From positions 1-48,311 of the IMG/VR virus record IMGVR_UViG_3300027704_000041: a DNA stretch of 48,311 bases; one strand, given 5' to 3'. The position numbers were made by a program, and so were the translations under genes. Shown here piece after piece: positions 2,084-48,155 of the stretch. The notes below the pieces were generated by a model, which saw only the letters and a list, made by a program, of their open reading frames with translations, was not told the DNA's origin and did not search any database. The stretch is from a virus. How positions within the stretch are numbered: position 1 is the first letter of the stretch; each line of letters opens with the position of its first letter.

Positions 2084-2679
2084 TGAAGAGTGTAACCAAT
2101 TTTATAATAAAACCAAAAGAAACCAGATACAACAATACTAAGAAAATAGGTGATAAAAGTCTTATATTAAACACTGAGATATTTACTCATCAAAATGTTA
2201 GTAGAAATGCTATAGTGTTACAAACACCAACAGTAGGTTGTACTGAAATAAAACAAGGTGACGAAGTTATAGTACATCACAATGTTTTTAGAAGATGGAA
2301 AGATATAAAGGGTAGAGAGAAAAACTCAAAATCATTTTACAAAGAAGATATGTATTTCGTTATGCCTGATCAAATATTTGCATATAAGAGAAACGACGTC
2401 TGGAGAGCTGTAAAAGGTTTTAGCTTTGTACAACCATTAGAGAGTGTAGATATGTTGTCTATGGATAAAGAAACGCCGCTCATGGGAGTTGTTAAGCATG
2501 TTGATCCTGATTTAATGGATCAAAAGGTTTACTTAAATTCTTTAATAGGTTTTTCACCTAATTCAGAATATGAATTCATCATAGACGGTAGAAGATTATA
2601 CAGAGTTCCAACGAATGCAATTACAATTAAATATGAATATCAAGGAAACGAAAAGGAATATAATCCAAGCTGGGCATAA
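2083..2679 (+). CDS. Possible tandem GroES-like co-chaperonin
   Basis: 198 residues with two halves that each resemble the GroES beta-barrel pattern. In the first, IVLQTPTVGCTEIKQGDEVI is followed by an exposed loop and then FVMPDQIFAYKR. In the second, PLMGVVKH leads to SEYEFIIDGRRLYRVP and a final ITIKY strand. In GroES the order is: glycine-containing strand, GD-x-V strand, then a strand ending in an acidic-Ile-x-Ala motif. Phage co-chaperonins such as T4 gp31 help the host chaperonin fold the capsid protein, and this gene lies just upstream of the head module. Similarity is read by eye only; an unrelated beta-barrel structural protein is the main alternative. No GroEL gene is in the window. 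Confidence 0.45.
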   Translation: MKSVTNFIIKPKETRYNNTKKIGDKSLILNTEIFTHQNVSRNAIVLQTPTVGCTEIKQGDEVIVHHNVFRRWKDIKGREKNSKSFYKEDMYFVMPDQIFAYKRNDVWRAVKGFSFVQPLESVDMLSMDKETPLMGVVKHVDPDLMDQKVYLNSLIGFSPNSEYEFIIDGRRLYRVPTNAITIKYEYQGNEKEYNPSWA

Positions 2680-26100: not shown

Positions 26101-29100
26101 CTACTAAGCAAAAATTAATATCTGATTTAGTTGCAGATTTTGACATAATAGAAAGTCGACTGCAGGATATGTTGTCTGATACAAATAAGAAAAAACTTAG
26201 AACTGCTTTTGTAGGTTTAGAGGTTACTAACAAAGAAAAATATGATAACTTCATTTCAGAAGCAGACGCTAATTTAATAGCTAAAGATCCTGACAAAAAA
26301 CACACGCCAGAGGACGTAAAGAAAGAAGCATATAATCTTTATATGAAAGACAAGTTTGAAGCTACTGATGCTCAAGCCGCTGCTGAAGGTATTAATATAT
26401 CTCAATTTAATACAGTAGACGAAGCTGTTACAGGCGTGCAAGCATTGGTTGATAACGGAACTTTAGATGAGCAAGTTGGTGCTGATTTTATAGATGGTAT
26501 AAAAAACAATAATGCAGATGGCGCGGCATACGTTGATGCTAATGGTGTTAAGACTACTATTTCCGTAATGGAGAATAGAATTAAAAACGAACAACAATTT
26601 ACAAAAACACATGAAATAGGTCACCAAGTATTTTGGGAGCTGTTTACTGGTAAAGGTGCTGATAGAATAGGTTTTGGTAATGTATCTAATCAACTTCTTA
26701 CTTCAATGGAGATGATTGATAATAAAACTTACCAAAGCTTTATAAAAGACCAACGTATATACGACGGAGATGGTAACGTTGATCCTAAAGAAGTTATATC
26801 TGTTTTTCTTGAGTATATTGCCCAAGGTAAATTTGGTGAGAAAAAAGCAAAAGGTTTATCTGGTTTATTTGGTGTTCTTACTCAGCAGAAGTTTAAAGAA
26901 AAATATAAGTTTGATTTCAAAGGAGAAACTGATTCTTATAATTTTGTTGTTAATTTAGCTAAAAAAATACAAGACGGAACTTTAACAAAAGAAGATATAG
27001 CTGATGCTAAAGAGTCTAGCGTGGTGACAGATGCTCAGACTAATGACATAAAAGATTTTATAAATCAAACAAAAGAAGCTCCATCTGACGTAGCTAATAG
27101 TGCTGGTACTAATTTAGAAGGTTTATTAAATGACTTTGTTGTAGGGAAAATGAACATCGATAGGTCTAAGAAAGGACTACCTGTTTTACCTGAAGGATTT
27201 ATTCCAAAGCCTGAAAAGAAAAGAGAAAAAATAAGATCTTTTGTTAACGGCATGTTAAGCACAGATGTTAACGGCAATCAAGTAACGGATTTTATGAAAT
27301 CAAGATTAGTTGCTGAATCTGACGCTATGGGTCCTTATGTAACAACTATTTCTAATAAAATTTGGAACGGTTTAGATCCAATGAACAGAGAAGGTCAAAC
27401 TATAGATACTTGGAAGCAACTTGTAGCTACAGAGTTATCTACAATGATACAGCAAGAGTATTTAAAACCAAATAAAGAAGGTGTTACTAAGTTTCAAGAT
27501 TTAGATAAGTTCGTAAGAAACAGAGGTTACTTTAGAGTGTTTGAGTTAGCGAAAGCTACTTTTAAGCAAACTGCAGCTACTTTAGGTTTAGAGAATGTTG
27601 GAGACGTTGCTGACACAGAGGTTGATTTAGATGCTGAGCAAGCTGATCTTGATGCTGCTAAAAAACTAAGAGATAGTAAGGTTGATTTTGTTAACAAAGT
27701 TAAATTTATAGACAGCAGTAATAAAGCTGTTAATCTACCAAATAGTGTAGTAGATGCGATAACTAATAATATTGTAAAAACATTTAAAACTAAAAAGTTT
27801 AAGAATGAGTTAGGTACTAACAAGTTTAGAACAGAGCTAGCTAAAGAGTATGGCGGAAGCATAGGAACTATGTTTAAAAATGTAATGCAACGTGGTGAAA
27901 ACTTTAACAACGATGTAGAGCTAACAAATGCAGATAAAAAAGGTAACTATTCTCAGTTTTTATCACAAAACTTTAACTTAATATACGATCTACCTATAGA
28001 TGTATTGAATAAAAAATATCCTTTCTTAACTGAAAGCACAGGTGTTAGAATGAATGCTGAGCAAATCAGAGGTCATAATGATGCTATAGACAAAGGCTTG
28101 AGTGTTGGTAAAAAAATAACTGATATAAAGTCTGGGCCTTTTATATTTGAAAAAGTAAAAGACAAGATAAAAGCTAAAATAGATTATTTAAATTACTTTG
28201 AAGGAACAGGTGTTAAGCCTAACACTAAAGGAGCTAGACAGTTATCTTTAGCTGATACGATGGGTCAAGAATCTGCTTATGATATTCAAGGAGATGCTCT
28301 TAGAGAAGCTGGTTTTAAAACAGAGGCTTTTATACAAGAGTTAAATAAAAACGTAGGTAGAGTAGCTTTTAGTTCTGTTAGAGGTCTAGATTTTGGTAAA
28401 CAATCTCAGTTTTATGCATCACTACCAGGTGTTGCTAGTATGTTAGACCCAAGCTCAACAAACTGGGCTGATCCTAAAAAAGTAGAAACAACGTTCAGAG
28501 AAATATTAAAAGATCAGTTACCTAATTTTACTAATTCAGAGGTAAACGCTATAGCAAAAGAACTAGCCGCTTACGCTAAGAAATTTAATCTTGTTGATCC
28601 TATAGTTAAAGATGGAGCTAAAGATTCTGGAATTCTTCTAGATTATATAAGTGACATGTTTTCTGAGAACCAGGTAAACCAAGCTCTAAGATCGTTTTTA
28701 AACTTAAACGAAGCTATTGCTCAAGGATTTGAGAATGACGTTAGAATACAAAGACATCGAGCTATACCTTTAGATTACATAAGACAGTTTGATAATGATC
28801 CAGTAAGACAAAGACAGGCTATTATTGACGTCATACAAAATAAACCTATGTATGCTGGTGCTGGTAAAATTGGCGATGGTAGATATCAAGTGTTTGAAAA
28901 TACAAATGATTTTTACAAGCACTTAAACACTTTGCCTGGTATTGAAATTGATATACCTAACTCAAGAAAATCTACACAATCTTGGCTTAAGATAAACGGT
29001 AAAGAAGTAGCGCAAAGTGAAATTACTTTAATAGCAGAGACAAGTGCTGGCGGATTAAAAGATAAAAACTTTACTGGAAGATTAGAACAAGCTAAAAACG

Positions 29101-32100
29101 CTAGACGATATGTTAAAGGCATGATGGAATTAGTTGTTGATGGTGAATATGACAATATGGATTTAGCTATGTTAGTTAAACAAATGGATTCTCAAATGAC
29201 AGCTCCATTAAAAAGAGCAGCTAACTTAGAATACATTGTACCAGGATTAAATCCTAAAAACGCTAGGTACGAGCACATGATACCTACTAATTTTGTTTTA
29301 ATGAACTTAGTTGATTACTACAAGAATGACAGAGCTAATGCTGATACAAAAGCAGACGAGTTATTTGAAGAGTATAAAGTGGCTATTATACCTAAAAAAA
29401 TGGATGATTTTCTAACCAAGGTTGGTTTACAATCAAAAATGAACTTAGGTTATAAGATAGGTGATCCTGCTTTTAAAAGATATTACAACATAAGAACTTG
29501 GGGTAACAAAAACTTTGTTGCTATAACAAGTATAAACCCAGACGCTACAACTAAAATTATTGGTGAGTCTTGGGAAATTGCAGGTAAAGCAGTCAACAAA
29601 CAAAACTTGTTCCAAGAGTTACAACAATACAGAGCTGAGACTAAAGCTGTTGAATTAGGCTCTAAAGTAGCTTTTTCAGCCAAAGGTATAAGTGTTTGGG
29701 ATTTTGATGATACATTGGCTCAAACTAAATCTAACGTGCTTTATACGCTTCCAGATGGAACGAAAGGAAAAATAGACGCTACAGAGTTTGCGTTACAATC
29801 TGCTGAACTAGAGTCTAAAGGTGCTAAGTTTGACTTTAGTGAATTTACTAAAGTTATGAAAGGTAAAAAGGGCCCTATGTTTGAGAAGGCTGTTGCTCGT
29901 AATAAAAAATTTGGAAATGAAAATGTTTTCATACTTACCGCTAGACCTCAAGGTGCTGCAAATGCTATACATACTTTTCTAAAAGGTATTGATCTTGATA
30001 TACGTCTAGAAAATATAGTTGGATTAGCTGATGGTACAGCTAAAGCAAAAGCTGACTGGATGATAACTAAAATAGCTGACGGTTACAATGATTTCTACTT
30101 TGCTGACGATGCTATTAAAAATGTTAAAGCAGTAAAACAAATATACGATAATTTTGATATAAAAGGTAGAGTTCAACTAGCTAAAGTTGCTTTTAGCAAA
30201 GGTCTAAGTGAAGATTTTAACAGCATGATGGAGCGTCAAAAAGGAGTAGATCCTAATAAAACGTTTTCCGAAGTAGTAGCTAGAAGAAGAGGTAAGAAGA
30301 AAGGTGGTTTTAAATTCTTTATTCCGCCTTCAGCAGAAGATTTTAGAGGTTTAACTCAATATACTTTTGCTGGTAAAGGAAAACAAGGTGATGCAGATCA
30401 AACTTTCTTTGAAGACGCTTTAATGGCACCTTATTTTAAAGGTATAGCTGCTATTGAATCGTCTAGACAATCTATCAAAAATGATACTTCAGGTTTATTA
30501 AAGATGTATAAGCCAGTGGTTAAAAAATTAAACAAATTAATTCCAGGAGGAGACTTCACGTATGACGCTGCTATAAGAGTATATCTTTGGACAGAGGCTG
30601 GTATTGAAATACCTGGTATATCTAAAAGAGATCAAAAAAAATTACATGACTTAGTTAAGAATGATTCAGATTTATCTGGCTACGCTGCTGGATTACTTAC
30701 CGTGTCAAAAGTAGATGTATGGCCAGAGCCTAGTAAGTACTGGGATACACAAACAACCTTAAGTGATTTACAAAACCTAACTGACAAAGTAAATAGAAAG
30801 CAATACTTATCTGAGTTTATTGAAAACGTAGATACTATATTTAGTGAAAAGAATTTATTTAAAATAGAGGCGCTTTACGGTAAGGCTACTAGAAGTGCTA
30901 TAGAAGATTCTATTTACGCTATGAAAACAGGTAGTAACAGAACAACAGGTTCTAATAGCATTAACAACTCTTGGTTGAACTGGATAAACAACTCTGTAGG
31001 TACTATAATGTTCTTCAATAGAAGATCAGCATTACTACAGTTAATATCTTCAACAAACTTTATAAACTGGAGTGATAACAATGTTTTACAAGCTGGTTTA
31101 GCTTTTGCTAACCAACCACAATATTGGAAAGATTTCGTAATGATATTTAATTCTGACAAGTTAAAACAAAGACGTGGTGGTTTAAAATCAGATGTTCAAT
31201 CAGCTGAGATAGCTAATGCAGCTAAGAATACAAAAGACAAAGCTAACGCAGCTATATCTTATTTGCTTAAAATAGGTTTTACACCTACACAAATAGCGGA
31301 TAGTTTTGCTATAGCTTCAGGTGGAGCTTCTTTTTATAGAAATAGAGTTAAAACCTATACAAAAAAAGGCATGTCTAAAGCTGATGCTGAAGCTGCTGCT
31401 TTTCAAGATTTCAGTAAAGTATCAGATGAAGCTCAACAATCTGGTGATCCTGCTTTAGTTTCACAACAACAAAGAAGTACGGCGGGTAGATTAATACTGG
31501 CTTTCCAGAATACGCCGATGCAGTATACTAGGTTGATGAAGAAAGCTGGCCAAGATATAATAAATGGTAGAGGAGATTTTAAAACAAATTTTAGTAAAAT
31601 AATATACTACGGAGCTGTGCAGAATTTAATATTCAATGCGTTACAGCAAGCGTTGTTTGCTTTAATACCTGGGTTTGACGATGACGATACTGATGAAAGT
31701 CTAGAAATTAGTCAATCTAGAAAACAAGCAAATATATTAAACGGAATGATGGATTCTATCATTAGAGGTAGTGGTATATATGGCGCTATCGCAACCACTC
31801 TTAAAAATACTATAAGAAAATTTTATCAACAAGAGAAAAAAGGATTTACAGCTGATCATACTTACACTATAATAGAAGCTGCAAACATATCACCTCCTGT
31901 AGGTTCTAAGTTAAGAAAAATATATAGTGCTATTCAAACTTATAGGTTTAACAAAGACGTTATAGCTAAACACCCTTGGGATTTAACCATAGAAGGTAGA
32001 TACAATCCATCTCCTAATTACGAAATAATGGGAAGTCTTGCTTCTGCTTTAGTAAACATACCTCTTGATAGGGTCATGATAGAATCACGAGGCATAGCTG

Positions 32101-32450
32101 AGGCTTTAGATGCTAGGAATTCATCTATGCAAAGAATAGCTCTAGCTTTAGGTTGGAGATCTTGGGGTGTAGGTGCTGAAAACGAGGAGTTTGATGAGAT
32201 TAAAGAAGAAGCTAAAGCTGTTAGGAAAGCAGAAGGTATAGAAAAAGGTAAACAAACTAGAAAGGATAATAAACTAAAAGAATTACTTGAGTACAATGCT
32301 AAAACGCCTGAAGAAAGAGCGGCTATAGATGCTGAAAAGAAAAGAAAAAGATCTGAGTCAGCGAGAAAAGGAGCTGCTACTAGGAAAGAAAATAAAAGAA
32401 TAAAAGATTCTATATTAACCAGTGATTTAATAAAACTACTACAACAATGA
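23154..32450 (+). CDS. Giant polyvalent (probably ejected) protein with zincin and HAD motifs
   Basis: 3098 residues, nearly a fifth of the window. The start contains GTPLKQAQQYSY. Hydrophobic Gly-rich segments lie around residues 640-860 (for instance LGTLDIGAGIANLGF and LPILAAMVASGGYAALVVG). A zinc-peptidase motif HEIGH at 1153-1157 has possible third ligands at E1213 or E1220. A HAD-type phosphatase domain shows DFDDTL at 2183-2188, ILTARP with T2262, and DD at 2318-2319. The C-terminal ~600 residues are helical with hydrophobic stretches and end in a very basic tail (SARKGAATRKENKR). Giant multi-domain proteins after the gp14-like genes are typically packaged in the head and injected with the DNA. 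No RNA polymerase signature was found. The frame is uninterrupted. Confidence 0.8.
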   Translation: MKGTPLKQAQQYSYNGKDFSIEEIQVAADSSGLSFDDYVSKHKLINDDFQTDPVNVEAVAGSEIQPINTASKLEKSLSDFKFRLTGDRDKNEVKRVDPQIKNVVQDSTNPNQYIKRIPKKIKTAETLEKDIFDDIVNPENIDFGVPGSEVAAAAAVKFEKLQKQGADFLRRISVRRIKNTNKSNILNAASSEEKVTTLLEVLKPSVNKEGVQDFSSTSFIGRVLGSDEEEGKITFDKIFSGTNLEFEEVNQGQFQGDNYAVLNAASGGTTGGFEFIKVKIPGSEGHVVLELNTDSLFTGQQTSALNKANYKLLQDYMTKNASLIKTDRDFFQNKESLRDEARAITEIATENNPIFIEEKQEIKSRFNVLNLDKSTAVNNTEFYKINQLFDGKYSTDRMPYSDETGSSHERGVLADKFDAVSKELSALSDDRIDTLKEKYKAKTIDDLAKMMVLNQEAQTETLGLINKFSQLYIEDNFQSRDTAAALNVGTRMLDLDLNKELESITSTQSTILDKSKENKNIQQIIQDVIDQKGGMTQLQEEQLTIALNNNGIVIDPYDNETYSETTIDENGVETTTVFNKAILSNLKTLYDQAYMDNASYYSIFNTLNDKAQNIADKKNELNVSMDAASRNYDLSEKYISNIALGTLDIGAGIANLGFNVFTGGVYMDEESPFQDLYKTTNRVRGSYVRDVDFSSGAGGAFNSIGNFGKFLMQEGSNQLPILAAMVASGGYAALVVGASSTGQKQMDMTYQLVNGLKDHSHTSMWLTSLGYGLAEGGFAHLTTVPILARAKRNFLKSGKLKGMQALNTSSKNWAKENARGTVTDILLEPLGEIATVGVQNMLDGVDVTRGMDHAGFSGFGFGLLFSGLPFLRGAYNSKFSSYESMSEMRGLQNSINEMGSKLDRMNYGMGDINPNFFKTKKQLMDNMAKKQAKLNKLIESNTTLIQNTLGEEAIGATIFVRNKQFGIQNKIKDIKNNPDIDAATKQKLISDLVADFDIIESRLQDMLSDTNKKKLRTAFVGLEVTNKEKYDNFISEADANLIAKDPDKKHTPEDVKKEAYNLYMKDKFEATDAQAAAEGINISQFNTVDEAVTGVQALVDNGTLDEQVGADFIDGIKNNNADGAAYVDANGVKTTISVMENRIKNEQQFTKTHEIGHQVFWELFTGKGADRIGFGNVSNQLLTSMEMIDNKTYQSFIKDQRIYDGDGNVDPKEVISVFLEYIAQGKFGEKKAKGLSGLFGVLTQQKFKEKYKFDFKGETDSYNFVVNLAKKIQDGTLTKEDIADAKESSVVTDAQTNDIKDFINQTKEAPSDVANSAGTNLEGLLNDFVVGKMNIDRSKKGLPVLPEGFIPKPEKKREKIRSFVNGMLSTDVNGNQVTDFMKSRLVAESDAMGPYVTTISNKIWNGLDPMNREGQTIDTWKQLVATELSTMIQQEYLKPNKEGVTKFQDLDKFVRNRGYFRVFELAKATFKQTAATLGLENVGDVADTEVDLDAEQADLDAAKKLRDSKVDFVNKVKFIDSSNKAVNLPNSVVDAITNNIVKTFKTKKFKNELGTNKFRTELAKEYGGSIGTMFKNVMQRGENFNNDVELTNADKKGNYSQFLSQNFNLIYDLPIDVLNKKYPFLTESTGVRMNAEQIRGHNDAIDKGLSVGKKITDIKSGPFIFEKVKDKIKAKIDYLNYFEGTGVKPNTKGARQLSLADTMGQESAYDIQGDALREAGFKTEAFIQELNKNVGRVAFSSVRGLDFGKQSQFYASLPGVASMLDPSSTNWADPKKVETTFREILKDQLPNFTNSEVNAIAKELAAYAKKFNLVDPIVKDGAKDSGILLDYISDMFSENQVNQALRSFLNLNEAIAQGFENDVRIQRHRAIPLDYIRQFDNDPVRQRQAIIDVIQNKPMYAGAGKIGDGRYQVFENTNDFYKHLNTLPGIEIDIPNSRKSTQSWLKINGKEVAQSEITLIAETSAGGLKDKNFTGRLEQAKNARRYVKGMMELVVDGEYDNMDLAMLVKQMDSQMTAPLKRAANLEYIVPGLNPKNARYEHMIPTNFVLMNLVDYYKNDRANADTKADELFEEYKVAIIPKKMDDFLTKVGLQSKMNLGYKIGDPAFKRYYNIRTWGNKNFVAITSINPDATTKIIGESWEIAGKAVNKQNLFQELQQYRAETKAVELGSKVAFSAKGISVWDFDDTLAQTKSNVLYTLPDGTKGKIDATEFALQSAELESKGAKFDFSEFTKVMKGKKGPMFEKAVARNKKFGNENVFILTARPQGAANAIHTFLKGIDLDIRLENIVGLADGTAKAKADWMITKIADGYNDFYFADDAIKNVKAVKQIYDNFDIKGRVQLAKVAFSKGLSEDFNSMMERQKGVDPNKTFSEVVARRRGKKKGGFKFFIPPSAEDFRGLTQYTFAGKGKQGDADQTFFEDALMAPYFKGIAAIESSRQSIKNDTSGLLKMYKPVVKKLNKLIPGGDFTYDAAIRVYLWTEAGIEIPGISKRDQKKLHDLVKNDSDLSGYAAGLLTVSKVDVWPEPSKYWDTQTTLSDLQNLTDKVNRKQYLSEFIENVDTIFSEKNLFKIEALYGKATRSAIEDSIYAMKTGSNRTTGSNSINNSWLNWINNSVGTIMFFNRRSALLQLISSTNFINWSDNNVLQAGLAFANQPQYWKDFVMIFNSDKLKQRRGGLKSDVQSAEIANAAKNTKDKANAAISYLLKIGFTPTQIADSFAIASGGASFYRNRVKTYTKKGMSKADAEAAAFQDFSKVSDEAQQSGDPALVSQQQRSTAGRLILAFQNTPMQYTRLMKKAGQDIINGRGDFKTNFSKIIYYGAVQNLIFNALQQALFALIPGFDDDDTDESLEISQSRKQANILNGMMDSIIRGSGIYGAIATTLKNTIRKFYQQEKKGFTADHTYTIIEAANISPPVGSKLRKIYSAIQTYRFNKDVIAKHPWDLTIEGRYNPSPNYEIMGSLASALVNIPLDRVMIESRGIAEALDARNSSMQRIALALGWRSWGVGAENEEFDEIKEEAKAVRKAEGIEKGKQTRKDNKLKELLEYNAKTPEERAAIDAEKKRKRSESARKGAATRKENKRIKDSILTSDLIKLLQQ

Positions 32451-35682: not shown

Positions 35683-35701
35683 AACTAACTAACTAACTAA
35701 C
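35682..35701. repeat. (TAAC)n repeat, stops in all frames
   Basis: Five tandem copies of TAAC (TAACTAACTAACTAACTAAC). The 4-base period places TAA in all three plus-strand frames and TTAG-derived TAG in all three minus-strand frames. It includes the nrdA stop codon at 35697-35699. Confidence 0.8.
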
Positions 35702-37415
35702 CATCACACGCAACGCAATCTTCGTTCATCGCTTGCTGTGCAATATCTCCACGTAAGACAGATTCTGTCCTCGTATAATATAAGGTTTTAACACCTTTTT
35801 TCCAAGCATCAAAGTGAACCTTGTTAAGCCATTTAGGCGTAGCTTCACTAGGAAATGCTAAGTTTAAACTCACTGACTGATCTACATATTGCTGTCTCAG
35901 TCCAGCTTGATTGACTAATTCTAGTTGATTAATCTCCTTAAAAGTTTTAAATACCTCCTTTGCGGTGACGTCGTGCGCCATAACAACATCATCAAGCTCA
36001 GTAATGTTTTGTACGCTACCACCGTCGGCCAGTATCTTGTCCCATGTCTCATTATTATTTATTTTAAGTTTTCTTAATAGTTTAACTAATGTAGGGTTTT
36101 TTCTTATAAAAGTACCTCTAGCAGATTGCTCTGTAAAAACGTTTGCTGCCCAAGGTTCTATTCCCGGAGATACGTTACCAGATAACTTAGAATTAGAAAC
36201 GGTGGGAGCAATAGCACGCAAATGAGTATTACGCATACCAGTACCAACACACCAAAGAGGTTCACCATAAATCTCTGCAAGGTCCATTGAAGCTCGCTCA
36301 CTTTCAATTTTAATTTGCGAAAAAATCTTCCTAGTTTCAAACTGAGATAGTAGACCTTCGAAAGCAATACCTTTCTCTTGGAGATACGTGTGCCATCCAA
36401 GTACTCCCAAGCCCAATGCTCTCCCTTTCTGCGCAGATCGTATAGAGTTTTCGAACCCGCGTAATCCTTTGGCTCTTTGAATAAATTCTTCCATAACGCC
36501 GTCAAGAAAGAATATGGCGTCATATATAAGGTTAGTGTCTTTCCATTCTTCATATTTAGCTAAATTTAATGATGACAAACAACATACGAAACTATGATTT
36601 TCATCTGTATGTAATGTTATTTCAGAACATATGTTAGTCATATGAACTTTTAATCCGTTTTGCTTATAAGCTTTAGGATTCTTTTTGTTAACGTTTCCTT
36701 TAAAGAGTATATAAGGTTCTCCAGTTGCTTTTCTTTTTCTAAGCAATTTACTCCACTTGTTTCTAGCTCCTGTATCTCCTTGCTCAAGCTTTCGCATGAA
36801 CTTATCCCCAACAATAGCGCACTGGTGAAGGTTAAGTGACTGTCTGTTAACATCTCCTTTAGGTTCTCGTATTTCCAACCAGTCTTCGAAGTCTTCGTGT
36901 TCGATATTAATGTTAACACTTGCAGCTCCTCTTCGAACTGATCCTTGATTAGTGGCAAGTATTGTTGAGTCATATATTTTACAAAAAGGGACAACTCCGT
37001 CTGATGTTCCATTACCTGTTATTCTAGCGCCAGCGGGTCTAATTTGATTTATACCGATACCTACTCCACCGCCGTGCTTAGCGAGTAACATCATCTCTAA
37101 ATTCTTTTGCCCTATGTCTTGGATAGAGTCTGCAACATCAATGCCAAAGCAACTGATAGGGAGGCCACGGTCAGTACCAGTATTACTAAGTACAGGACTT
37201 GCGAGGCATAACCACCCGTTCCAAATATACTGGAAGAAAGTTTCTGCCATTTCTGGCTTATATAATCGTCTAGCAACTGTCCTCGATACTCTTTCATAAG
37301 CTTCCTTTGGTGTCTCTCCTTCCAATAAATATCCTCCAGATATCGTTTTCTTGTAGACATCTGTGTCTCCCCATCTTGGGTAATCTTCTCCTTTAATCCA
37401 CTCATTATTCCACAT
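35697..37415 (-). CDS. nrdA: Ribonucleotide reductase large subunit, class Ia
   Basis: 572 residues against about 760 for E. coli NrdA; the N-terminal ATP-cone is absent, the protein beginning at MWNNEWIKGEDYPRWGDTDV. Catalytic features: C89 in ISCFG, N261/C263/E265 in TNICSEI, the second redox cysteine in CCLSSLNL (C278/C279), the radical-transfer tyrosines in LYYTRTES, and a C-terminal CVAC pair for electron delivery. It reduces ribonucleoside diphosphates to supply dNTPs, with NrdB as partner. Lack of the ATP-cone predicts loss of dATP feedback inhibition, common in phage versions. It overlaps the upstream gene by 11 bases and ends at the all-frame stop repeat and terminator. Confidence 0.93.
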   Translation of the reverse strand: MWNNEWIKGEDYPRWGDTDVYKKTISGGYLLEGETPKEAYERVSRTVARRLYKPEMAETFFQYIWNGWLCLASPVLSNTGTDRGLPISCFGIDVADSIQDIGQKNLEMMLLAKHGGGVGIGINQIRPAGARITGNGTSDGVVPFCKIYDSTILATNQGSVRRGAASVNINIEHEDFEDWLEIREPKGDVNRQSLNLHQCAIVGDKFMRKLEQGDTGARNKWSKLLRKRKATGEPYILFKGNVNKKNPKAYKQNGLKVHMTNICSEITLHTDENHSFVCCLSSLNLAKYEEWKDTNLIYDAIFFLDGVMEEFIQRAKGLRGFENSIRSAQKGRALGLGVLGWHTYLQEKGIAFEGLLSQFETRKIFSQIKIESERASMDLAEIYGEPLWCVGTGMRNTHLRAIAPTVSNSKLSGNVSPGIEPWAANVFTEQSARGTFIRKNPTLVKLLRKLKINNNETWDKILADGGSVQNITELDDVVMAHDVTAKEVFKTFKEINQLELVNQAGLRQQYVDQSVSLNLAFPSEATPKWLNKVHFDAWKKGVKTLYYTRTESVLRGDIAQQAMNEDCVACDG

Positions 37416-37902
37416 ATTTTTTATTTATTAGTAAGGGTTCTTTTTTATATTCTCTATTCTTAGCATTAAACTTAAGTTGCATATGATACAACCCGTCTTT
37501 CTTCCATTTACCATTCCAAGGTTTAAAGTTTGATGATAACCTGTCATATGATTTAGCAAACTTCCATATTCTACTTCCGTCACCCTTTATCTTGTCTAGT
37601 GACTTAACCCAGAACATATCTAAAGGACCTAGCTCTCTACAAATATCTAACAAAGCTACTAATTCTTTTGTTCTCTTACCGGTGACACATATGTCTATAT
37701 CAGTTGTTTTCCAACCGTTAAGTATTCCACCAACTAAATATAGATCATAATGCAACCAATCAAGCTTTAATATTTCTTCTACGTATCTTTTATATATTGG
37801 ATCATCTATTCCTTGCATGTATGGTATAAAAACACCGTGAGGTCCTTTTACTCTACCATCTGTTTCATGGTTGTAATCATCTTCATTCCAAAAGGTTTTC
37901 AT
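37405..37902 (-). CDS. Nucleotidyltransferase-like protein
   Basis: 165 residues from the ATG at 37902, whose ATGA overlaps the stop of the upstream gene; a longer 185-residue frame exists but this overlap decides the start. The motif LVGGILNGWKTTDIDICV supplies GG (58-59) and two acids (D68, D70) with spacing like the Pol-beta superfamily minimal nucleotidyltransferases (GG/GS then DxD), followed by a helical part. Such proteins transfer a nucleotide to a protein, RNA or small molecule, or are antitoxin/toxin relatives. Placed between a membrane protein and nrdA. The substrate cannot be told. Confidence 0.6.
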   Translation of the reverse strand: MKTFWNEDDYNHETDGRVKGPHGVFIPYMQGIDDPIYKRYVEEILKLDWLHYDLYLVGGILNGWKTTDIDICVTGKRTKELVALLDICRELGPLDMFWVKSLDKIKGDGSRIWKFAKSYDRLSSNFKPWNGKWKKDGLYHMQLKFNAKNREYKKEPLLINKKYVE

Positions 37903-38165
37903 AAAAATAAATGTTTGGTCCAAGCAAATAAACCGTTTATATTTAAAACAACTAAGTTCCATTGCTTTCTAGCTGACGTTTGAATAACAACACAACAGAA
38001 ACCTATGATAAATAACATAGGTTCCAGTGTCCATTGTCCAGCTATAAGAAAGCCTGCTCCGAAGTAACCAATTCTAGTTGATAACCTCTCACTCCAAGTC
38101 AAGCGTCTTTGCCTGACTAGATTCCTTGCTAGCTTCAGCTTTAAGCTTTTCCAACGCTTCATCAT
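37899..38165 (-). CDS. Small membrane protein with two helices
   Basis: Up to 88 residues. From about residue 30 two hydrophobic stretches are visible (RIGYFGAGFLIAGQWTL and PMLFIIGFCCVVIQTSA), followed by ARKQWNLVVLNINGLFAWTK. The N-terminal 25 residues overlap the upstream coiled-coil gene; a TTG start at about 38102, where that gene ends, may be the real one. Its stop overlaps the next start as ATGA. Probably an inner-membrane protein; function unknown. Confidence 0.55.
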   Translation of the reverse strand: MMKRWKSLKLKLARNLVRQRRLTWSERLSTRIGYFGAGFLIAGQWTLEPMLFIIGFCCVVIQTSARKQWNLVVLNINGLFAWTKHLFL

Positions 38166-38803: not shown

Positions 38804-39772
38804 TTACCAAATATCTTCGAAGTCTTCTCCTTCGTTCGCTTTAGAATAGTCAGTCGGCCTAATAGCGAAGAAATCAGTATGAGTGACGCCCCCGGTAAGA
38901 TGGTAAAACCAATCAAGATTACCTGCTGCTTCCTTGTCATACGCGAAATACGATCCAAGATCGATATAACCCAATTCCAATAGTTTTTCATTAGTTCTCT
39001 TTTTTATAAATTGTTTTAGATCATAAGACTTAATACCTTCAATGTCACCCATTTCAAACATCTTGTCTATATACTTTTCTTCAAGCTCTACCATTGTCTC
39101 CGCCGCTTTGATTATATCATCTCTACACTCTACTAATAAGCTATCATCTTCGTTGCACATGTGTCTAAATAATTGACAACCCATTTTACTGTGAAGAGAT
39201 TCATCTCTTACAGACCATTTCATTTGCTGACCTATACCTTTAAGTAAATTACGTAACTGAAAAGAATAAAGAACAGCAAAGGCACTATATAAGCTAACGC
39301 CTTCTGCAAATGCTGAAAATATGGCCAATGAAGTTCCAATCCCCACAGTGCTATTGCCATCATAAGCAACCAAGTTATCAAAACGATCGGCTGTCGCAGG
39401 TTCGTGTAAAAACGCTTCATAATCTTCTAGTTTTAATGTTTCATTTAAATAACTATATGCTACAGCATGTACAGTTTCTTGTGAACCAAACATCATAGCC
39501 ATTTGTCTTATTTCGTGTTTAGGAAACCACGATACAACCTTCTGTGTCCAATAGTCTGATACCGCGCATTCTGTCTGAGCGAATCCAAGAAGTATGTTCC
39601 CGACGAGGTTTTTTTCTTTTTCATTAAGTTTCTCATTCCAATCTTTTATATCACTCTGCATTGAGATTTCAGTATGTAACCAAAATGCTTGTGCTTGTTT
39701 TAACCAACCTTCTGTGTAATATTCAGGGTAATCAAACGGTTTGTACGCTACGCGCTCATCAAATAATCCCAT
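38804..39772 (-). CDS. nrdB: Ribonucleotide reductase small subunit, class Ia
   Basis: 322 residues. Iron ligands and the radical tyrosine are in place: E68, E99 and H102 with Y106 in the ETVHAVAY motif, E157 in FAEGVSLY, and E191/H194 in RDESLHSK. The C-terminus (EDFEDIW) is acidic and aromatic, as needed to dock on NrdA. The subunit generates the tyrosyl radical for ribonucleotide reduction. It starts by overlapping the stop of a 47-residue gene (TAATG). The partner nrdA lies 1.4 kb downstream, separated by five small genes. Confidence 0.94.
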   Translation of the reverse strand: MGLFDERVAYKPFDYPEYYTEGWLKQAQAFWLHTEISMQSDIKDWNEKLNEKEKNLVGNILLGFAQTECAVSDYWTQKVVSWFPKHEIRQMAMMFGSQETVHAVAYSYLNETLKLEDYEAFLHEPATADRFDNLVAYDGNSTVGIGTSLAIFSAFAEGVSLYSAFAVLYSFQLRNLLKGIGQQMKWSVRDESLHSKMGCQLFRHMCNEDDSLLVECRDDIIKAAETMVELEEKYIDKMFEMGDIEGIKSYDLKQFIKKRTNEKLLELGYIDLGSYFAYDKEAAGNLDWFYHLTGGVTHTDFFAIRPTDYSKANEGEDFEDIW

Positions 39773-39915: not shown

Positions 39916-40073
39916 ATTTTATACTCTTTACATTGATTAATTAAATCTTTATATCTAATCCTGCCGAACTGTTGCCATTTCCATTTCCACCATTTCTCAA
40001 ACTGACGTTCGCCATATTTCTGCCTAGCTATTCTTTTAGCTTCGAAAGGATTAACCTTACTGTTTCGTCGCAT
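39912..40073 (-). CDS. 53-residue Trp/basic microprotein
   Basis: MRRNSKVNPFEAKRIARQKY, then a Trp-rich stretch (FEKWWKWKWQQFGRIRYK) and DLINQCKEYKI. It overlaps the nuclease gene upstream by 46 bases and the 47-residue gene by ATGA. Strongly basic and aromatic, compatible with nucleic-acid or membrane binding. Function unknown. Confidence 0.55.
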   Translation of the reverse strand: MRRNSKVNPFEAKRIARQKYGERQFEKWWKWKWQQFGRIRYKDLINQCKEYKI

Positions 40074-40483
40074 TCTTTATGATTTTGTGGTTTATATAAT
40101 GTAAGTGGTCCTAATCGTCTTTCTGTTATTAGCTTTTTAAACAACTTCCATCTAAGAGGAAATGATTCATTAGCTCTACCTTTAGTTTCGATTATAAAAC
40201 CCTTACCTACAAAGTCTGGCGTGTATTTTATATTTAGTATCTTTTTATTACCTCTGTTTTTATACTCTCCTTTACCATTTCCACATCTTTCATAAGATTC
40301 AAATGGAAAATCAAAGGCTTCGGACAACTCAAATGTTTGACCTTCATACAAAGATGTTATTTTAGCTTTTCTTAAAGCCATATACATATAACGCTCTAGC
40401 CCGGAGGCGAAGTTGATCCCATCATATGAGACCTTCTTCGACTGCACAGGACCTTTTTTTCTTTTAAAGTTTTTCTTCTTCAT
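40028..40483 (-). CDS. PD-(D/E)xK endonuclease (T7 endonuclease I-like)
   Basis: 151 residues from the ATG at 40483, which is preceded by a GGAG at a good distance; a 161-residue form starts ten codons earlier. The nuclease core is visible: E30 in FASGLERYMYMALRKA, D90 in YTPDF, and E99-T-K101 in GFIIETKGR, the D...ExK pattern of PD-(D/E)xK enzymes. The fold is like phage Holliday-junction or branch-resolving nucleases such as T7 gp3, needed to process recombination intermediates before packaging. It is part of the recombination/replication arm; the preceding MazG-like gene overlaps it by 20 bases. Confidence 0.7.
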   Translation of the reverse strand: MKKKNFKRKKGPVQSKKVSYDGINFASGLERYMYMALRKAKITSLYEGQTFELSEAFDFPFESYERCGNGKGEYKNRGNKKILNIKYTPDFVGKGFIIETKGRANESFPLRWKLFKKLITERRLGPLTLYKPQNHKECDETVRLILSKLKE

Positions 40484-40760
40484 AATGTTCTCCAGTGTTT
40501 CCGTTTTGACCAATGATATTCATTCTTGCTAACATAGATTCTTCTATTTCATCTGTCAAGCACCGTTTAGCTGATTCAATATACAATAACGCATCCATTA
40601 ATTCTTCTTGCACGTCAATTAAAAATCTATTAAGATCTTTCTTCTGACCTACAATCTCTTCCATCATAGTTGCGCCATACTTTTCTTGGCCTATGATACT
40701 GCGTTGATCCATTTTCTTTAATACTGATAATACAATTTCATCTTTAGTTTCTATATTCAT
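40464..40760 (-). CDS. MazG-like (all-alpha NTP pyrophosphatase) candidate
   Basis: 98 residues, all helical. After QEKYGATMMEE, a second helix reads DVQEELMDALLYIESAK, resembling the acidic metal-binding helices of MazG-like/dCTPase-type pyrophosphatases, though the full EExxE...ExxD pattern is not clear. It lies between a clear MazG-domain fusion and the resolvase-like nuclease. It would hydrolyse an unwanted (d)NTP. Alternative: an unrelated helical phage protein. Confidence 0.45.
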   Translation of the reverse strand: MNIETKDEIVLSVLKKMDQRSIIGQEKYGATMMEEIVGQKKDLNRFLIDVQEELMDALLYIESAKRCLTDEIEESMLARMNIIGQNGNTGEHYEEEKL

Positions 40761-41555
40761 TTATTTATCTTTTACAAATGTTCCATTAATCATTTTACCT
40801 GTTCTAGTTGCTATAACTTTATAAGCTTCATCAATACAATATTCAATATCATATCCCTGCATGTGAGCTAAGTTAGTTAATACTACAACCATATCACCTA
40901 TTGCATCCACAATTTCAGGCTTATCATCTTGCAGCAAAGCTTTAGCTAGTTCACCAGCTTCTTCTTGTAGCTTAACATATTGCGTATGTGGATTACCTTC
41001 ATCATATAAGCCTCTTCTAGCTGCCCAGTCTCTAATAAGATCAAATCTTTCATTTGTCTCTGGCACTGTTTGGTTAGCCATCATTAATAACATGTCAACT
41101 TGAGGTGTATGTGCTGGGTTAAAATAAGCTTCATAAAAAGCTTTATTATATATGTAAGATCTATCAGCGTTAAACATAGATATCTTAGCATTCTTCATTA
41201 TCCATTTTATGTTCTCATTTGTTATTTCAAACTGGCCGAACTCTGTTTTCCAATTTAAACCTATGTTATCCATTAATCTACCTTTTAGTTTATTTAAAGG
41301 CACTGGGAATGTTGAGGTTTGTTCTGTTGCGTTTATTTTCATTTTTTTAAATAAGTTTTTATATTTTTTAATATCTACCTTATAGCCATAAGACTTTTGA
41401 AGTTCTATTTCACGGTCTGATATATACTCTATATCGTCTGACTGTTCAAGAACTTCATACTCATTCTCCTTATAGCCTTGCATAAGGGTAACCCTGTTAT
41501 TAAGATTACGTGTAACTCCTATTTTTTTACCTGGTATGTGGTATAAATAATACAT
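40761..41555 (-). CDS. GIY-YIG-like / MazG fusion protein
   Basis: 264 residues with two parts. Residues 1-65 resemble a GIY-YIG domain: YYLYHI, KIGVTRNLNNR with R21, and a later acid in REIELQ (E49/E51). A linker of about 110 residues follows, then residues 171-264 show a MazG domain with E198/E199/E202 (QEEAGE) and E214/D217/D221 (EIVDAIGD), the metal-binding signature of all-alpha NTP pyrophosphatases. MazG-type enzymes remove a nucleotide from the pool, including dCTP or dUTP in phages. Whether the GIY-YIG part still cuts DNA is unclear. It is next to the thymidylate-synthase-family gene, which suggests a shared nucleotide pathway. Confidence 0.65.
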   Translation of the reverse strand: MYYLYHIPGKKIGVTRNLNNRVTLMQGYKENEYEVLEQSDDIEYISDREIELQKSYGYKVDIKKYKNLFKKMKINATEQTSTFPVPLNKLKGRLMDNIGLNWKTEFGQFEITNENIKWIMKNAKISMFNADRSYIYNKAFYEAYFNPAHTPQVDMLLMMANQTVPETNERFDLIRDWAARRGLYDEGNPHTQYVKLQEEAGELAKALLQDDKPEIVDAIGDMVVVLTNLAHMQGYDIEYCIDEAYKVIATRTGKMINGTFVKDK

Positions 41556-41558
41556 ATT

Positions 41559-42203
41559 TTAAAGTTTATTGTTATACAAGTGCATATTATGAGCGTGATG
41601 ATAGTAAGTACCTGTTTCAATACTTAGTCTCTTAGCAATCATTCGCTGCAACATTGAGAATTGATACTGATCATTACAGAAGCCGTACCAGATGTCATTA
41701 GAACGCATATAGACAGACATATTAAGTTTGTCGTTTAGTATTGTAAACTGAACTGCGTATGTACATGGTGTATCTTTTCTATAAGTTTCCCACTCTTTAC
41801 CGTCATATATACTTAAAGCTGCGTGTCTAGTGTTTTTGTTCTGTCTTAGCTTAGCGACAACAAGATCTATTTGATTATTTCTTTGCCATTGCCAACCGTA
41901 ATTAGATCTTACTTCTCTGTTTGAATCAGCCATCTTTTCCCATATCGGTGGTATCTTACCGTATATCTCACCTAGCTTGTCTATACTAGGATCACCTGAT
42001 AAATACCATTCCCATTCAGCTTCAGCGTACTTTAAGCTCCATTTACGCTCTTTGTTTACTATATGGTTATCTTGTGGATTCATAATATAAAACCCACAAT
42101 TAAACAAAGCTTTAGTGTCATCAAAATCATCACCGTAACAGATGATCTGATCTAATAAAAACTCGTATGCTTCGTTTGCATTTTCAAATCTTGTGTTTAT
42201 CAT
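41559..42203 (-). CDS. Thymidylate synthase family, probable dCMP hydroxymethylase/methylase
   Basis: 214 residues. Family hallmarks: YGWQW near 102-106, catalytic Cys147 in TPCTYAVQF, the RSND segment at 167-170, and an HNMHLY end. At the position of the dUMP-binding Asn of E. coli ThyA (N177), an ungapped alignment from RSND puts Asp178 (GFCND). In this family Asn-to-Asp marks dCMP-using enzymes such as T4 dCMP hydroxymethylase (gp42). The enzyme would therefore modify dCMP at C5 with methylene-tetrahydrofolate. Its neighbour is a MazG fusion, matching the role of T4 dCTPase (gp56). Being one residue beside N177, the Asp call depends on the alignment. Confidence 0.6.
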   Translation of the reverse strand: MINTRFENANEAYEFLLDQIICYGDDFDDTKALFNCGFYIMNPQDNHIVNKERKWSLKYAEAEWEWYLSGDPSIDKLGEIYGKIPPIWEKMADSNREVRSNYGWQWQRNNQIDLVVAKLRQNKNTRHAALSIYDGKEWETYRKDTPCTYAVQFTILNDKLNMSVYMRSNDIWYGFCNDQYQFSMLQRMIAKRLSIETGTYYHHAHNMHLYNNKL

Positions 42204-42426
42204 AATAATATTTATAGTAACTGTGAATTTTCTCCCATATTTCAGTCTTCTTAAAGACTTGAGGGGATCTGTTTAATTTATTGTTAATGACTATGTCGAC
42301 ATTCCATTCAAAAGTACTGTGTGCCCAAGCTGATATTTTAATGCCGTTTGCTATACACCATTGCATATGCTTGAAGTTCTCTGTCGTGGGCATATGTTCA
42401 CCCATATTTATACCTTTCTTAGCCAT
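42184..42426 (-). CDS. Small hypothetical protein
   Basis: 80 residues, starting MAKKGINMGEHMPTTENFKH. Mixed helical and Trp/Tyr-rich (HMQWCIANGIKISAWAHSTF, then WEKIHSYYKYYYDKHKI). Its 3' end overlaps the thymidylate-synthase-family gene by 20 bases, and it starts directly after the primase-helicase stop, so it is an operon member. No family recognised. Confidence 0.55.
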   Translation of the reverse strand: MAKKGINMGEHMPTTENFKHMQWCIANGIKISAWAHSTFEWNVDIVINNKLNRSPQVFKKTEIWEKIHSYYKYYYDKHKI

Positions 42427-44154
42427 TTATTCCCAAGGCATTTTTTCTCCAGCAACATTTAATTGCTCATGAGGTATAAAACAACCTGACCTTGGTTCCC
42501 ACTTAAAATGAGCTTCAGCGCCGTTTTCACCTAAGTTTTGAAACTTAACTTTTAAAACCTTAGCTTTAACGGTCTTAGCTTCATAGTCTCTGTGAACTAA
42601 TATACCATGATAACTAGCATCATACCATTCACCACCACCTTTAATGTTATACATAGTTGGCTCTTCCATTTTGCCATCCTTATCTTTATACATTTTAGTT
42701 GGGTGAGCAACTACAAAAACTAATACATCATACTTCTTAGCAAAGATTTCAATCTTGCTTAAGTATTCCATAGTATATCTATTAACATCTTCTAACTTAG
42801 AATCTATATCTCTTACCTTATTAAAAGGATCAATAACTAAACACTTAATACCTTTACGTTTAACTAGCTCAGCTCCCTTACGCAGAACCGATTCTAGTGT
42901 GTAACGTTCCATATCTATATGAAAGTAATTAGTATTACAATGATCAGCTATTTGATTCCATTTATCTCCATGTATATCCTCAGCAGTTGGCATACCTTCC
43001 CAGGTTTTACGCATTAGCTTGTGAGCATGTAGATAAGTAGGAGCATTCTCGGGTGATGCAAAGGCTGTTTTCCAACCATAGTTACGATTGTAACCTACAA
43101 CCATTTGATCAACAAAATCAGACTTACCACTACTAGGTATCCCAGTAACAGTAATAAACTGGCCGGTATATGTAGAAAAAATTTCATCGAAGTTTGATAG
43201 GCCAACTTGAAATCCTTTCTTAAAACCATTGCGAACAAAATCCGTAATCTCGTTTTCAATATCATTAAATGTCGTGACATTCTCCAACGGTACTGGTCTT
43301 GCTTTTGCAATACGCTCTGATAGTTTTTCTTTTCCATGTTTTTGTAGGTATTCGTTTGCATCTTTACAGTCATCAAATGATGCTAAGTAACAAACTTCAG
43401 CTCCAAGTCTACGGACTAATTCTGATTGTAATGCTTGCCCTGCCTCATCTGAATCTACCGCTAGTATTACTTTGTCTTTATCTTCAAAGTAATCTATACA
43501 GTTATCAAGATAGTCTAGGTTGTTAGAGTTTAGTGTAGCGCCATTAGGTACTGATATAGTGTTTGGTATACCAGCTTCATGAAATGCTAACACATCCATC
43601 TCGCCTTCAGTTATAACACAATAGTCATAACCTACTATACTGTTTATATTATAGAATACTTTTTCAGCACCCTTATATAATTTAAAGTTCTTTCTTCCAT
43701 CGCGATACTTAACATTAATAAGTTGATCGCCCATAAAGTAATTAAACTTAATCGTGTTCTCATTCTTACCTGTCTGAGGCATCCACTCTGTACCCTCTCC
43801 AACTTTACAGTCGTTGAGAGTATGAGCTGATATTCCTCTAGTTTTAAACCACTCAGCTACTTTATCACTTATGCCAAAGTCTTCATCTGGAACTTCAGGA
43901 TTTGGTTGCGTAGGTCTTATGTAGACTTTCTCACTAGCTCCTTTACGTTGATATGTATGTAGTTGAAATGATGTATTACAGTTGTGACAAGTACCGAGAC
44001 CCCGTTCCCAATCATATGAAGCACATTTTGCTTTCACATTTTTAGGTTTTCTATCAGTAGAACAGTTAGGGCATATACCCTGTTTCTTTCCTTCCTCAAG
44101 CTTATGTTGATTGAACTCGTCAATCAAAAATCCATTGATCTCTGTTGTTTGCAT
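42427..44154 (-). CDS. Primase-helicase (T7 gp4-like)
   Basis: 575 residues. The zinc-binding primase start has C28/C31 and C56/C59 (CPNC ... CHNC). A TOPRIM region carries E183/E185 in ITEGEMD and D234/D236 in AVDSDEAG. The RecA-type helicase domain has Walker A GIPSSGKS (338-345), Walker B with D442 in LVIDPFNK, and the sensor histidine in VVAHPTKM. It makes RNA primers and unwinds the fork as a ring helicase, working with the SSB encoded just upstream. The whole set of motifs is intact. The DNA polymerase it would serve is not in the window. Confidence 0.92.
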   Translation of the reverse strand: MQTTEINGFLIDEFNQHKLEEGKKQGICPNCSTDRKPKNVKAKCASYDWERGLGTCHNCNTSFQLHTYQRKGASEKVYIRPTQPNPEVPDEDFGISDKVAEWFKTRGISAHTLNDCKVGEGTEWMPQTGKNENTIKFNYFMGDQLINVKYRDGRKNFKLYKGAEKVFYNINSIVGYDYCVITEGEMDVLAFHEAGIPNTISVPNGATLNSNNLDYLDNCIDYFEDKDKVILAVDSDEAGQALQSELVRRLGAEVCYLASFDDCKDANEYLQKHGKEKLSERIAKARPVPLENVTTFNDIENEITDFVRNGFKKGFQVGLSNFDEIFSTYTGQFITVTGIPSSGKSDFVDQMVVGYNRNYGWKTAFASPENAPTYLHAHKLMRKTWEGMPTAEDIHGDKWNQIADHCNTNYFHIDMERYTLESVLRKGAELVKRKGIKCLVIDPFNKVRDIDSKLEDVNRYTMEYLSKIEIFAKKYDVLVFVVAHPTKMYKDKDGKMEEPTMYNIKGGGEWYDASYHGILVHRDYEAKTVKAKVLKVKFQNLGENGAEAHFKWEPRSGCFIPHEQLNVAGEKMPWE

Positions 44155-47361: not shown

Positions 47362-47689
47362 AAATTATTTCTATTTTTACGGCTTCCCATTTCCCACCTC
47401 TTACGTCTGTGTCGACTAAGAAATCTATCCTGTTTGTCCATCGTTTATTCATTCTATCTTGTACTGTCCATACTCCATCCATATCTCCAGCGCCTGACAC
47501 TAGCACCTTAACGCCAAATATAAAGCCTAAGTTTTCTAGGTCTCTACTAACAGCTAACCATCTATGATCACCTGGGCAGCACTCTTCTATGTGAGCTCCT
47601 GACGCAGTTATAAATGGTGTGCTATCTGTTTGACTTGGATCAGCATGGTATATAGTCGCGGTTACCAATATGTAAGTTAATATATTCAT
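47354..47689 (-). CDS. 3D-domain (RlpA/MltA-like) protein
   Basis: 111 residues. The 3D motif region is visible: TDSTPFITASGAH, then LAVSRDLENL with D50, VLVSGAGDMDGVWTVQDRMN with D71 and D78, and IDFLVD with D89. Three aspartates in a double-psi beta-barrel give the 3D name; some relatives cut peptidoglycan glycan strands. A hydrophobic start (MNILTYILVTATIYHA) could be a weak export signal or simply the first strand. Position in the minus-strand early arm, away from the endolysin, suggests an entry-time or early role rather than lysis. Confidence 0.65.
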   Translation of the reverse strand: MNILTYILVTATIYHADPSQTDSTPFITASGAHIEECCPGDHRWLAVSRDLENLGFIFGVKVLVSGAGDMDGVWTVQDRMNKRWTNRIDFLVDTDVRGGKWEAVKIEIIYE

Positions 47690-48155
47690 CTGGTCTAAAT
47701 TTAAAATCTTCGTTCTTGTTAGCTACAGTGTGTTTATCACGCTCGTAGTAATTCCAATAAGCTGTAACGCTACAACCCTCAACCTTATAATCGTCCGGCA
47801 TACATTGAGGAGGTTCTGTAAAAGTACTTTCCGGAATTGTGGGTGGTAAATGTTTTAAAGTTTCTGCGCATTTTGTTATTGTTAAGTGTGTTCGTTTATA
47901 TCTCTTTGTGTATTCTTCTCCTAGTGCAATCATGTGGTTGTAAAGCCATAGATACTGACTAGCATTCTGCCTACACCATATGGTAGACGGATGGTTGTAA
48001 TGCGCTTTTTTATAAGGCACATTGTCTCCGTTACCATAATGATGATGAGCAGTGCAAAGCATTTGAGCACATTCTAGTATCATTTTTACTTTATGCTTAT
48101 CGTAGAAATAGCTTGCTGCTTTGGCTGGATCATTGTCTAAATAAAATATATTCAT
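47640..48155 (-). CDS. Conserved phage protein, function unknown
   Basis: 171 residues, MNIFYLDNDPAKAASYFYDK, with a His/Tyr/Trp-rich middle (MILECAQMLCTAHHHY, HPSTIWCRQNASQYLWLYNH, LGEEYTKRYKRTHLT) and CMPDDYKVEGCSVTAYWNYY near the end. This N-terminal pattern (D-x-D/N-P-x-x-A-A ... DKH-x-VKMI-x-E ... AHxxY) recurs in T4-like and marine phages from memory and has been called pyrimidine-dimer glycosylase-like in annotations I cannot verify. It overlaps the 3D-domain gene by 50 bases. Confidence 0.6.
   Translation of the reverse strand: MNIFYLDNDPAKAASYFYDKHKVKMILECAQMLCTAHHHYGNGDNVPYKKAHYNHPSTIWCRQNASQYLWLYNHMIALGEEYTKRYKRTHLTITKCAETLKHLPPTIPESTFTEPPQCMPDDYKVEGCSVTAYWNYYERDKHTVANKNEDFKFRPDEYINLHIGNRDYIPC

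Follow-up and report, generated by a model that had tools for sequence, protein, structure and literature searches.

A predicted dCMP hydroxymethylase paired with a MazG-type pyrophosphatase in a marine flavophage genome

We analyzed a 48,311-base IMG/VR virus record (IMGVR_UViG_3300027704_000041, positions 1 to 48,311; hereafter the window) and found a protein of the thymidylate synthase superfamily that is predicted with high confidence, from its sequence, to be a dCMP hydroxymethylase. Its gene directly adjoins that of a MazG-type pyrophosphatase. We consider it probable that the two enzymes serve the replacement of cytosine by 5hmC in the phage DNA, with host activation of the modified nucleotide and blocking of restriction as the outcome; 5-hydroxymethyl-dCMP would be the enzyme product and 5hmC would be present in virions. 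A first-pass annotation of the window had proposed this core reading, a cytosine-specific enzyme of the T4 type acting with MazG against restriction, and it is well supported by residues, fold, gene neighborhood, exchange of genes in a shared slot, and relaxed avoidance of palindromes.

Three relatives with terminal overlaps (G003, G007, and G014) were taken as complete circular genomes of 66–69 kb, so the window represents roughly 70% of a genome. The proposed Bacteroidota origin was supported to the level of Flavobacteriia, as those terminase-search records that name a host were Flavobacterium, Cellulophaga, Tenacibaculum, or Maribacter phages. Host bins from MAG contigs disagree (Aliivibrio, Flavobacteriaceae, and Verrucomicrobiales); therefore, the host assignment was taken from the terminase relatives. 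A single scan of IMG/VR with the hydroxymethylase gene gave 220 matching stretches, of which the best 80 share 70–82% identity, and these 80 plus the window are the 81 loci used for neighborhood counts below. With the gene this common, modified cytosine may be frequent in ocean phage DNA, where it would be invisible to standard sequencing. See Table 1 for the features of the operon.

Table 1. Genes of the predicted cytosine-modification module and its operon neighbors, by position in the window
Feature	Position	Strand	Basis or remark
Ribonucleotide reductase (RNR) large subunit	35697..37415	-	Operon neighbor
Ribonucleotide reductase (RNR) small subunit	38804..39772	-	Operon neighbor
DUF1064/Holliday-junction-resolvase-like endonuclease	40028..40483	-	Same operon; outside the mobile module
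98-aa helical partner protein	40464..40760	-	Accompanies the pair in both phage backbones
MazG/PRA-PH-type pyrophosphatase, domain at residues ~170-255 after an N-terminal extension of ~165 aa	40761..41555	-	Pfam, residue pattern
Predicted dCMP hydroxymethylase, thymidylate-synthase superfamily, 214 aa	41559..42203	-	Pfam, alignment, residues, fold
80-aa protein, function unassigned	42184..42426	-	Directly upstream; 20-base overlap with the hydroxymethylase start
Primase-helicase (Toprim + DnaB-like)	42427..44154	-	Pfam

The hydroxymethylase reading frame is uninterrupted, and its product matches the Pfam family Thymidylat_synt (PF00303) at 8.6e-26. The residues of the thymidylate synthase fold are kept, including the catalytic Cys and the Glu58/60, Arg166/168, His207/216, and Tyr209/218 positions. 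The key residues of the window protein are E63, S100-x-Y102, R126, D144, C147, T148, R167, S168, D170, D178, H208, and Y210. An Asp at position 177/179 separates cytosine enzymes from uracil enzymes (PMC6400193, PMC5175136, PMC8670742). In an alignment of 23 sequences, residue 178 falls in the column of ThyA N177 and T4 dCH D179, which holds Asp in the window protein, T4 gp42, and relatives, and Asn in E. coli ThyA, SPO1 gp29, and Vi01. Asp again stood in the N177 column when the alignment was repeated on a smaller set, so the first-pass placement of Asp178 at the ThyA Asn position, in a protein of this family, was borne out. D178 and the signature residues for hydroxymethylation and for a deoxy substrate are invariant in the window protein and 42 relatives (43 sequences), and purifying selection acts on the gene, with a dN/dS of about 0.07–0.14. 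Therefore, neither chance nor decay accounts for Asp178.

Hydroxymethylases are told from methylases by an acidic residue at the third position ahead of the catalytic Cys, a Ser-x-Tyr motif, and the lack of a C-terminal tail (PMC6400193). The window protein has D144-T-P-C147 and S100-N-Y102, and only 4 residues follow its HxY motif, compared with 55 in ThyA and 28 in T4 gp42, so that a ThyA-like folate-sealing tail is absent. Neither of the ThyA marks, Asn177 and the C-terminal tail, was found in the protein. The two phosphate-binding Arg of the partner subunit (R123 and R124) differ in conservation: the first is kept as R126, and the second (Arg124 of T4 dCH) is His127 here, a departure from the T4 enzyme, and Gln in SPO1 and Vi01.

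An AlphaFold model of the hydroxymethylase was obtained with a pLDDT of 85.6 and a pTM of 0.85. A Foldseek search indicates the top match is MilA, the CMP 5-hydroxymethylase of mildiomycin biosynthesis, at a TM score of 0.87; E. coli ThyA reaches about 0.81 and T4 dCH 0.73–0.75. Sequence searches of the PDB gave T4 dCH and MilA as the best matches by phmmer with the single sequence, and MilA first and T4 dCH second with a profile of the clade, in both cases ahead of ThyA. Judged by these searches and by the predicted fold, the closest solved relatives are (d)CMP hydroxymethylases, not ThyA. MilA is thus nearest in both fold and profile, but differs in the residues that read the sugar: deoxy enzymes have Ser and Arg in place of Ala176 and Lys133 of MilA (PMC5175136). 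The ribose marks of MilA are not present in the window protein, which has S168 and R126, and a deoxy substrate is therefore expected.

The MazG-type gene adjoins the hydroxymethylase gene in all 81 loci, and the junction is usually a 4-bp overlap (30 loci) or a gap of a few bases. The C-terminal domain of its product is intact and passes the Pfam cut-offs for both PF01503 (9.5e-6, the best Pfam match) and PF03819 (6.7e-5). The metal-binding EExxE...[ED]xxxD pattern, formed by E198, E199, E202, D217, and D221, is invariant, in agreement with the clear MazG-type pyrophosphatase annotated here at first pass. A parallel with the T4 dCTPase had also been drawn. The pairing of a hydroxymethylase with a MazG-type pyrophosphatase stands, but there is no sequence relation to T4 gp56: orthology was ruled out at an hhalign probability of 2.5%, and gp56 matches PF08761 (dUTPase_2), whereas the window protein does not. 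Specificity for dCTP was therefore taken from context, and the enzyme is predicted to remove unmodified dCTP and to supply dCMP. In the MetaGPA study, Asp177 is the hallmark of the thymidylate-synthase-family genes carried by modified-cytosine contigs, and on these contigs PF01503 domains accompany those of thymidylate synthase (PMC8670742).

The 98-aa gene, found in 68 loci, had been suggested as a possible second MazG. This assignment was dropped, as the protein has no Pfam family above the cut-off, hhalign to a MazG alignment gave 0.5%, and its low-confidence model (pLDDT 69) returned no PDB match in Foldseek.

The likely role of the hydroxymethylase is in cytosine replacement in phage DNA. 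In the mechanism that we propose, Cys147 would attack C6 of dCMP, Asp178 would select and protonate the cytosine, and Glu63 would activate methylene-tetrahydrofolate. Asp144 and a water molecule would then complete 5-hydroxymethyl-dCMP (5-hm-dCMP), in place of the hydride transfer that forms a methyl group. The MazG-type enzyme probably hydrolyses dCTP to dCMP, which would both keep cytosine out of the phage DNA and feed the hydroxymethylase. Conversion of 5-hm-dCMP to the triphosphate would apparently proceed via host kinases, and the host polymerase would probably incorporate the modified nucleotide into the phage DNA. Host type II restriction would be blocked by this modified cytosine, present as bare 5hmC or further decorated.

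About ten loci (L016, L018, L025, L026, L031, L034, L035, L036, L040, and L042) have a different, siphovirus-like backbone. In this second backbone, the hydroxymethylase adjoins a MazG that has just the C-terminal domain (104 aa), and the pair is present with or without the 98-aa gene, which lies directly upstream in L025. No RNR was seen in this backbone. The RNR is left behind when the pair moves and therefore lies outside the mobile module; of the first-pass claim that it belongs to the set, only the presence of both subunits nearby was upheld. We surveyed the corresponding slot by scanning with the terminase of the second backbone and found a hotspot between the 5'-3' exonuclease and terminase genes. 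Some loci hold the hydroxymethylase with MazG in this slot, whereas L225 has a ThyA-like enzyme flanked by the same two partners. In others the slot is filled by an N6/N4-methyltransferase (L226), a C5-methyltransferase-like gene (L222), or a cassette that includes a Tet_JBP (TET/JBP) dioxygenase (L211 and others). Genes that swap in one slot tend toward related jobs. A function of the hydroxymethylase in DNA modification is thus backed by its replacement with DNA-modification genes in the same slot, and the hotspot may be a cheap route to further modification genes. Two gene clusters adjoining the hydroxymethylase in L042 (54 and 58) were also considered as hypermodification enzymes and rejected, with no functional family in Pfam or PHROGs.

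Next to the gene content, the DNA composition of the loci bears on restriction. We compared observed with expected counts of 4-bp palindromes, with the expectation taken from tri- and dinucleotide counts, in loci of at least 6 kb. A strongly avoided palindrome was present in 1 of 65 loci with the gene versus 61 of 72 loci of a sister clade, a contrast between two non-independent clades that counts as about one evolutionary event and for which p-values are overstated. The median ratio for C-containing palindromes was 0.96 in gene-carrying loci and 0.70 in the sister clade, and the GATC ratio was 1.14 and 0.17, respectively. The lack of the gene was verified over the full record for 18 of the sister-type contigs (six of 54–65 kb) and for two database records. 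The database relatives are elemo phage, in which GGCC, CCGG, and CATG are at zero, and ctfjg026, with GATC at 0/321 and CCGG at 0/45; PF00303 is absent over the whole record of each. The paired clades may offer a natural experiment on the way in which a modified base loosens the avoidance of restriction sites.

The contrast could also come from different hosts with different restriction systems and not from DNA modification. That the main test sets only two clades against each other speaks for this, as does the mixed picture in the second backbone: L025 and L026 carry the hydroxymethylase yet lack CATG, and L228 and L240 avoid no site without it. In the other direction, hydroxymethylase loci with a PALP cassette in that backbone have GATC ratios of 0.5–0.85, and GATC is lacking in six close relatives. 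The main contrast persists when both members of a pair come from one metagenome or one sampling series (e.g., GATC at 130/129 in L057 versus 0/104 in L187). It also spans several unrelated sites (GATC, CATG, CTAG, GGCC, and CGCG), and palindromes without C differ very little, at 0.98 in gene-carrying loci and 0.95 in the sister clade. We therefore regard host difference as an unlikely, if serious, explanation and favor relaxed avoidance through cytosine modification.

The nearest cultured homologue is from Bacteroides fragilis phage BF486P2, at 44% identity, where a carbamoyltransferase and a possible kinase share the island with the gene; this phage still avoids GATC and CTAG. The carbamoyltransferase family in question has been shown to act on 5hmC (PMC8670742). 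The next homologues, from ATCCB and nattely, adjoin beta-glucosyltransferases. The MetaGPA islands (PMC8670742) and the BF486P2 island resemble the window in combining an Asp177 thymidylate-synthase-family gene with a PF01503 pyrophosphohydrolase, there in modified-cytosine DNA. They differ in that a 5hmC carbamoyltransferase was found in none of 21 records of the flavophage clade, and no deaminase was seen in the window.

Some parts of the T4 pathway could not be located. The textbook example of cytosine replacement comes from the T-even phages; the T4 set comprises gp42 with the gp56 dCTPase, the gp1 dNMP kinase, and alpha- and beta-glucosyltransferases; the phage-coded kinase gp1 is needed to activate 5-hm-dCMP. 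The first-pass annotation had expected the kinase and any glycosyltransferase to lie beyond the window, and the relatives did not bear this out. We searched for a kinase with PF21448, T4 gp1, and Walker-A patterns widened to take in the GKD motif. The DNMK kinase (PF21448; T4 gp1) was not found in 20 relatives, including the three complete genomes, with the T4 control positive at 2e-108. Walker-A patterns revealed no obvious P-loop kinase in the three complete genomes, where only the primase-helicase ORF has such a motif in a plausible P-loop context. Similarly, a family-A DNA polymerase was not found in the 20 relatives, complete genomes included, and the sole glycosyltransferase-like genes seen among relatives lie in a cassette that 13 loci carry. 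With neither the kinase nor the polymerase found in the relatives, the T4 pathway was not copied whole. If no phage kinase is present, activation of 5-hm-dCMP must fall to host kinases, or else the product stays out of the DNA. By contrast, an annotated kinase lies nearby in several phages that carry related genes.

Failure of incorporation would make the pair a nucleotide-pool device, in which dCTP or other NTPs are broken down by MazG, while hydroxymethyl-dCMP fails to enter DNA for want of a phage kinase. We consider this improbable. The missing kinase and polymerase would fit it, as would the general abundance of MazG-like enzymes in phages, but it sits poorly with palindrome avoidance being lost precisely in the loci that carry the gene, with exchange for other DNA-modification genes, and with the 5hmC carbamoyltransferase-family gene next to the BF486P2 homologue. 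If the module does modify DNA without a phage kinase, either 5-hm-dCMP is a substrate for the CMP kinases of the hosts or the module may hide a new activity.

Cytosine specificity through Asp177 is also a property of XP12-type dCMP methylases. An enzyme of this kind would use dCMP and complete the hydride transfer of ThyA, giving 5-methylcytosine DNA like that of Xanthomonas phage XP12. The Asp would be expected there too, and a ThyA N-to-D mutant yields 5-methyl-dCMP (cited in PMC8670742). Furthermore, a local candidate exists in L225, a relative with a 96% identical terminase whose ThyA-like enzyme fills the same slot. The L225 enzyme has Asp177, keeps the C-terminal tail, and lacks an acid before the Cys, from which we predict a dCMP methylase. 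The window enzyme shows the opposite: Asp144, Ser100-x-Tyr102, and the missing tail are all hydroxymethylase features (PMC6400193), which makes a methylase highly improbable here.

In a tree of the family, support for the deep branches is poor and T4 gp42 sits on a long branch, so we used the tree only for the window clade and for the dUMP-type SPO1 gp29 and Vi01 enzymes, which form a separate supported pair. A dUMP enzyme (a thymidylate synthase or a dUMP hydroxymethylase) supplying dTMP or hmdU, as superfamily membership and the many public homologues annotated as thymidylate synthase might suggest, is hardly credible given this pairing apart, the invariant Asp178, and the confinement of Asn to the uracil enzymes of the alignment.

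In general, the window enzyme resembles T4 gp42 in its catalytic and specificity residues, its short, tail-less architecture, and its pairing with a pyrophosphatase, despite an identity of about 25% in a structure alignment. Unlike in T4, the pyrophosphatase is a MazG/PRA-PH protein, for which no relation to gp56 could be detected, and the two genes are directly adjacent. Searches of 20 relatives turned up neither a DNMK kinase nor a carbamoyltransferase nor a family-A polymerase. As far as can be seen, the flavophage module is therefore a modular, kinase-free variant of the T4-type pathway. We tentatively suggest, for an abundant marine flavophage lineage, a module of hydroxymethylase, MazG, and small helical partner that may work with no phage kinase, family-A polymerase, or glycosyltransferase, rely on host enzymes for the activation and insertion of 5-hm-dCMP, carry cytosine chemistry that can be swapped in a slot (for a dCMP methylase or a TET-type oxygenase), and release restriction-site avoidance. 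A further comparison is offered by Shewanella phage Thanatos, for which modified cytosine was detected by mass spectrometry together with restriction resistance (PMC12838424). Thanatos likewise has a predicted dCTP pyrophosphatase and a dCMP hydroxymethylase-type enzyme, but it is a different phage, which carries sugar genes and in which the cytosine receives a pentose (PMC12838424).

The slot between the 5'-3' exonuclease and terminase genes of the second, siphovirus-like backbone (the hotspot) holds, in locus L225, a ThyA-like enzyme that is a candidate phage dCMP methylase. It is 32% identical to E. coli ThyA, has the cytosine-specificity residue Asp177 (ThyA numbering), and lacks the acid preceding the catalytic Cys. 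The Tet_JBP cassette of L211, in the same hotspot, also encodes a P-loop NTPase-like protein and recurs in L207, L230, L243, and L250. The PALP gene of L042 and its two companions are possible hypermodification genes. The Bacteroides fragilis phage BF486P2, which has the nearest cultured homologue of the predicted dCMP hydroxymethylase, encodes two Asp177 family members sited near each other. In the second, Leu replaces the equivalent of catalytic Glu58, and Asp177 is kept.

The early operon of 13 relatives has an extra cassette immediately downstream of nrdA, the RNR large subunit gene. This cassette encodes a JmjC-like cupin, a small cupin, and two glycosyltransferase-like proteins; in 3 of the 13 it also includes genes resembling those for KdsA (DAHP_synth_1) and CMP-sugar synthetase (CTP_transf_3). 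Its role could be either surface-sugar or base decoration. The possible nucleotidyltransferase gene of the window was seen in three loci only.

Features of the window and related loci
Feature	Location	Remarks
ThyA-like enzyme, Asp177	L225:7542-8291	flanked by 98-aa gene and MazG
Five-gene cassette with Tet_JBP dioxygenase	L211:5846-9014	hotspot also occupied by L225 enzyme
PLP-dependent enzyme (PALP), two proteins without a functional family in Pfam or PHROGs	L042:7294-10004	directly upstream of hydroxymethylase
Divergent second Asp177 family member	L004:19770-20531	BF486P2
nrdA-downstream cassette	L046:11235-13881; L080:15467-19354	and 11 other loci
Possible nucleotidyltransferase	window 37405-37962	between two RNR genes; PF01909, below cut-off
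Pyrimidine-dimer DNA glycosylase	window 47640-48155	window end; PF03013, T4 endonuclease V family
GroES-like co-chaperonin	window 2083-2679	
GroEL	G014:52609-54177	complete relative
Single 3098-aa ORF	window 23154-32450	structural region
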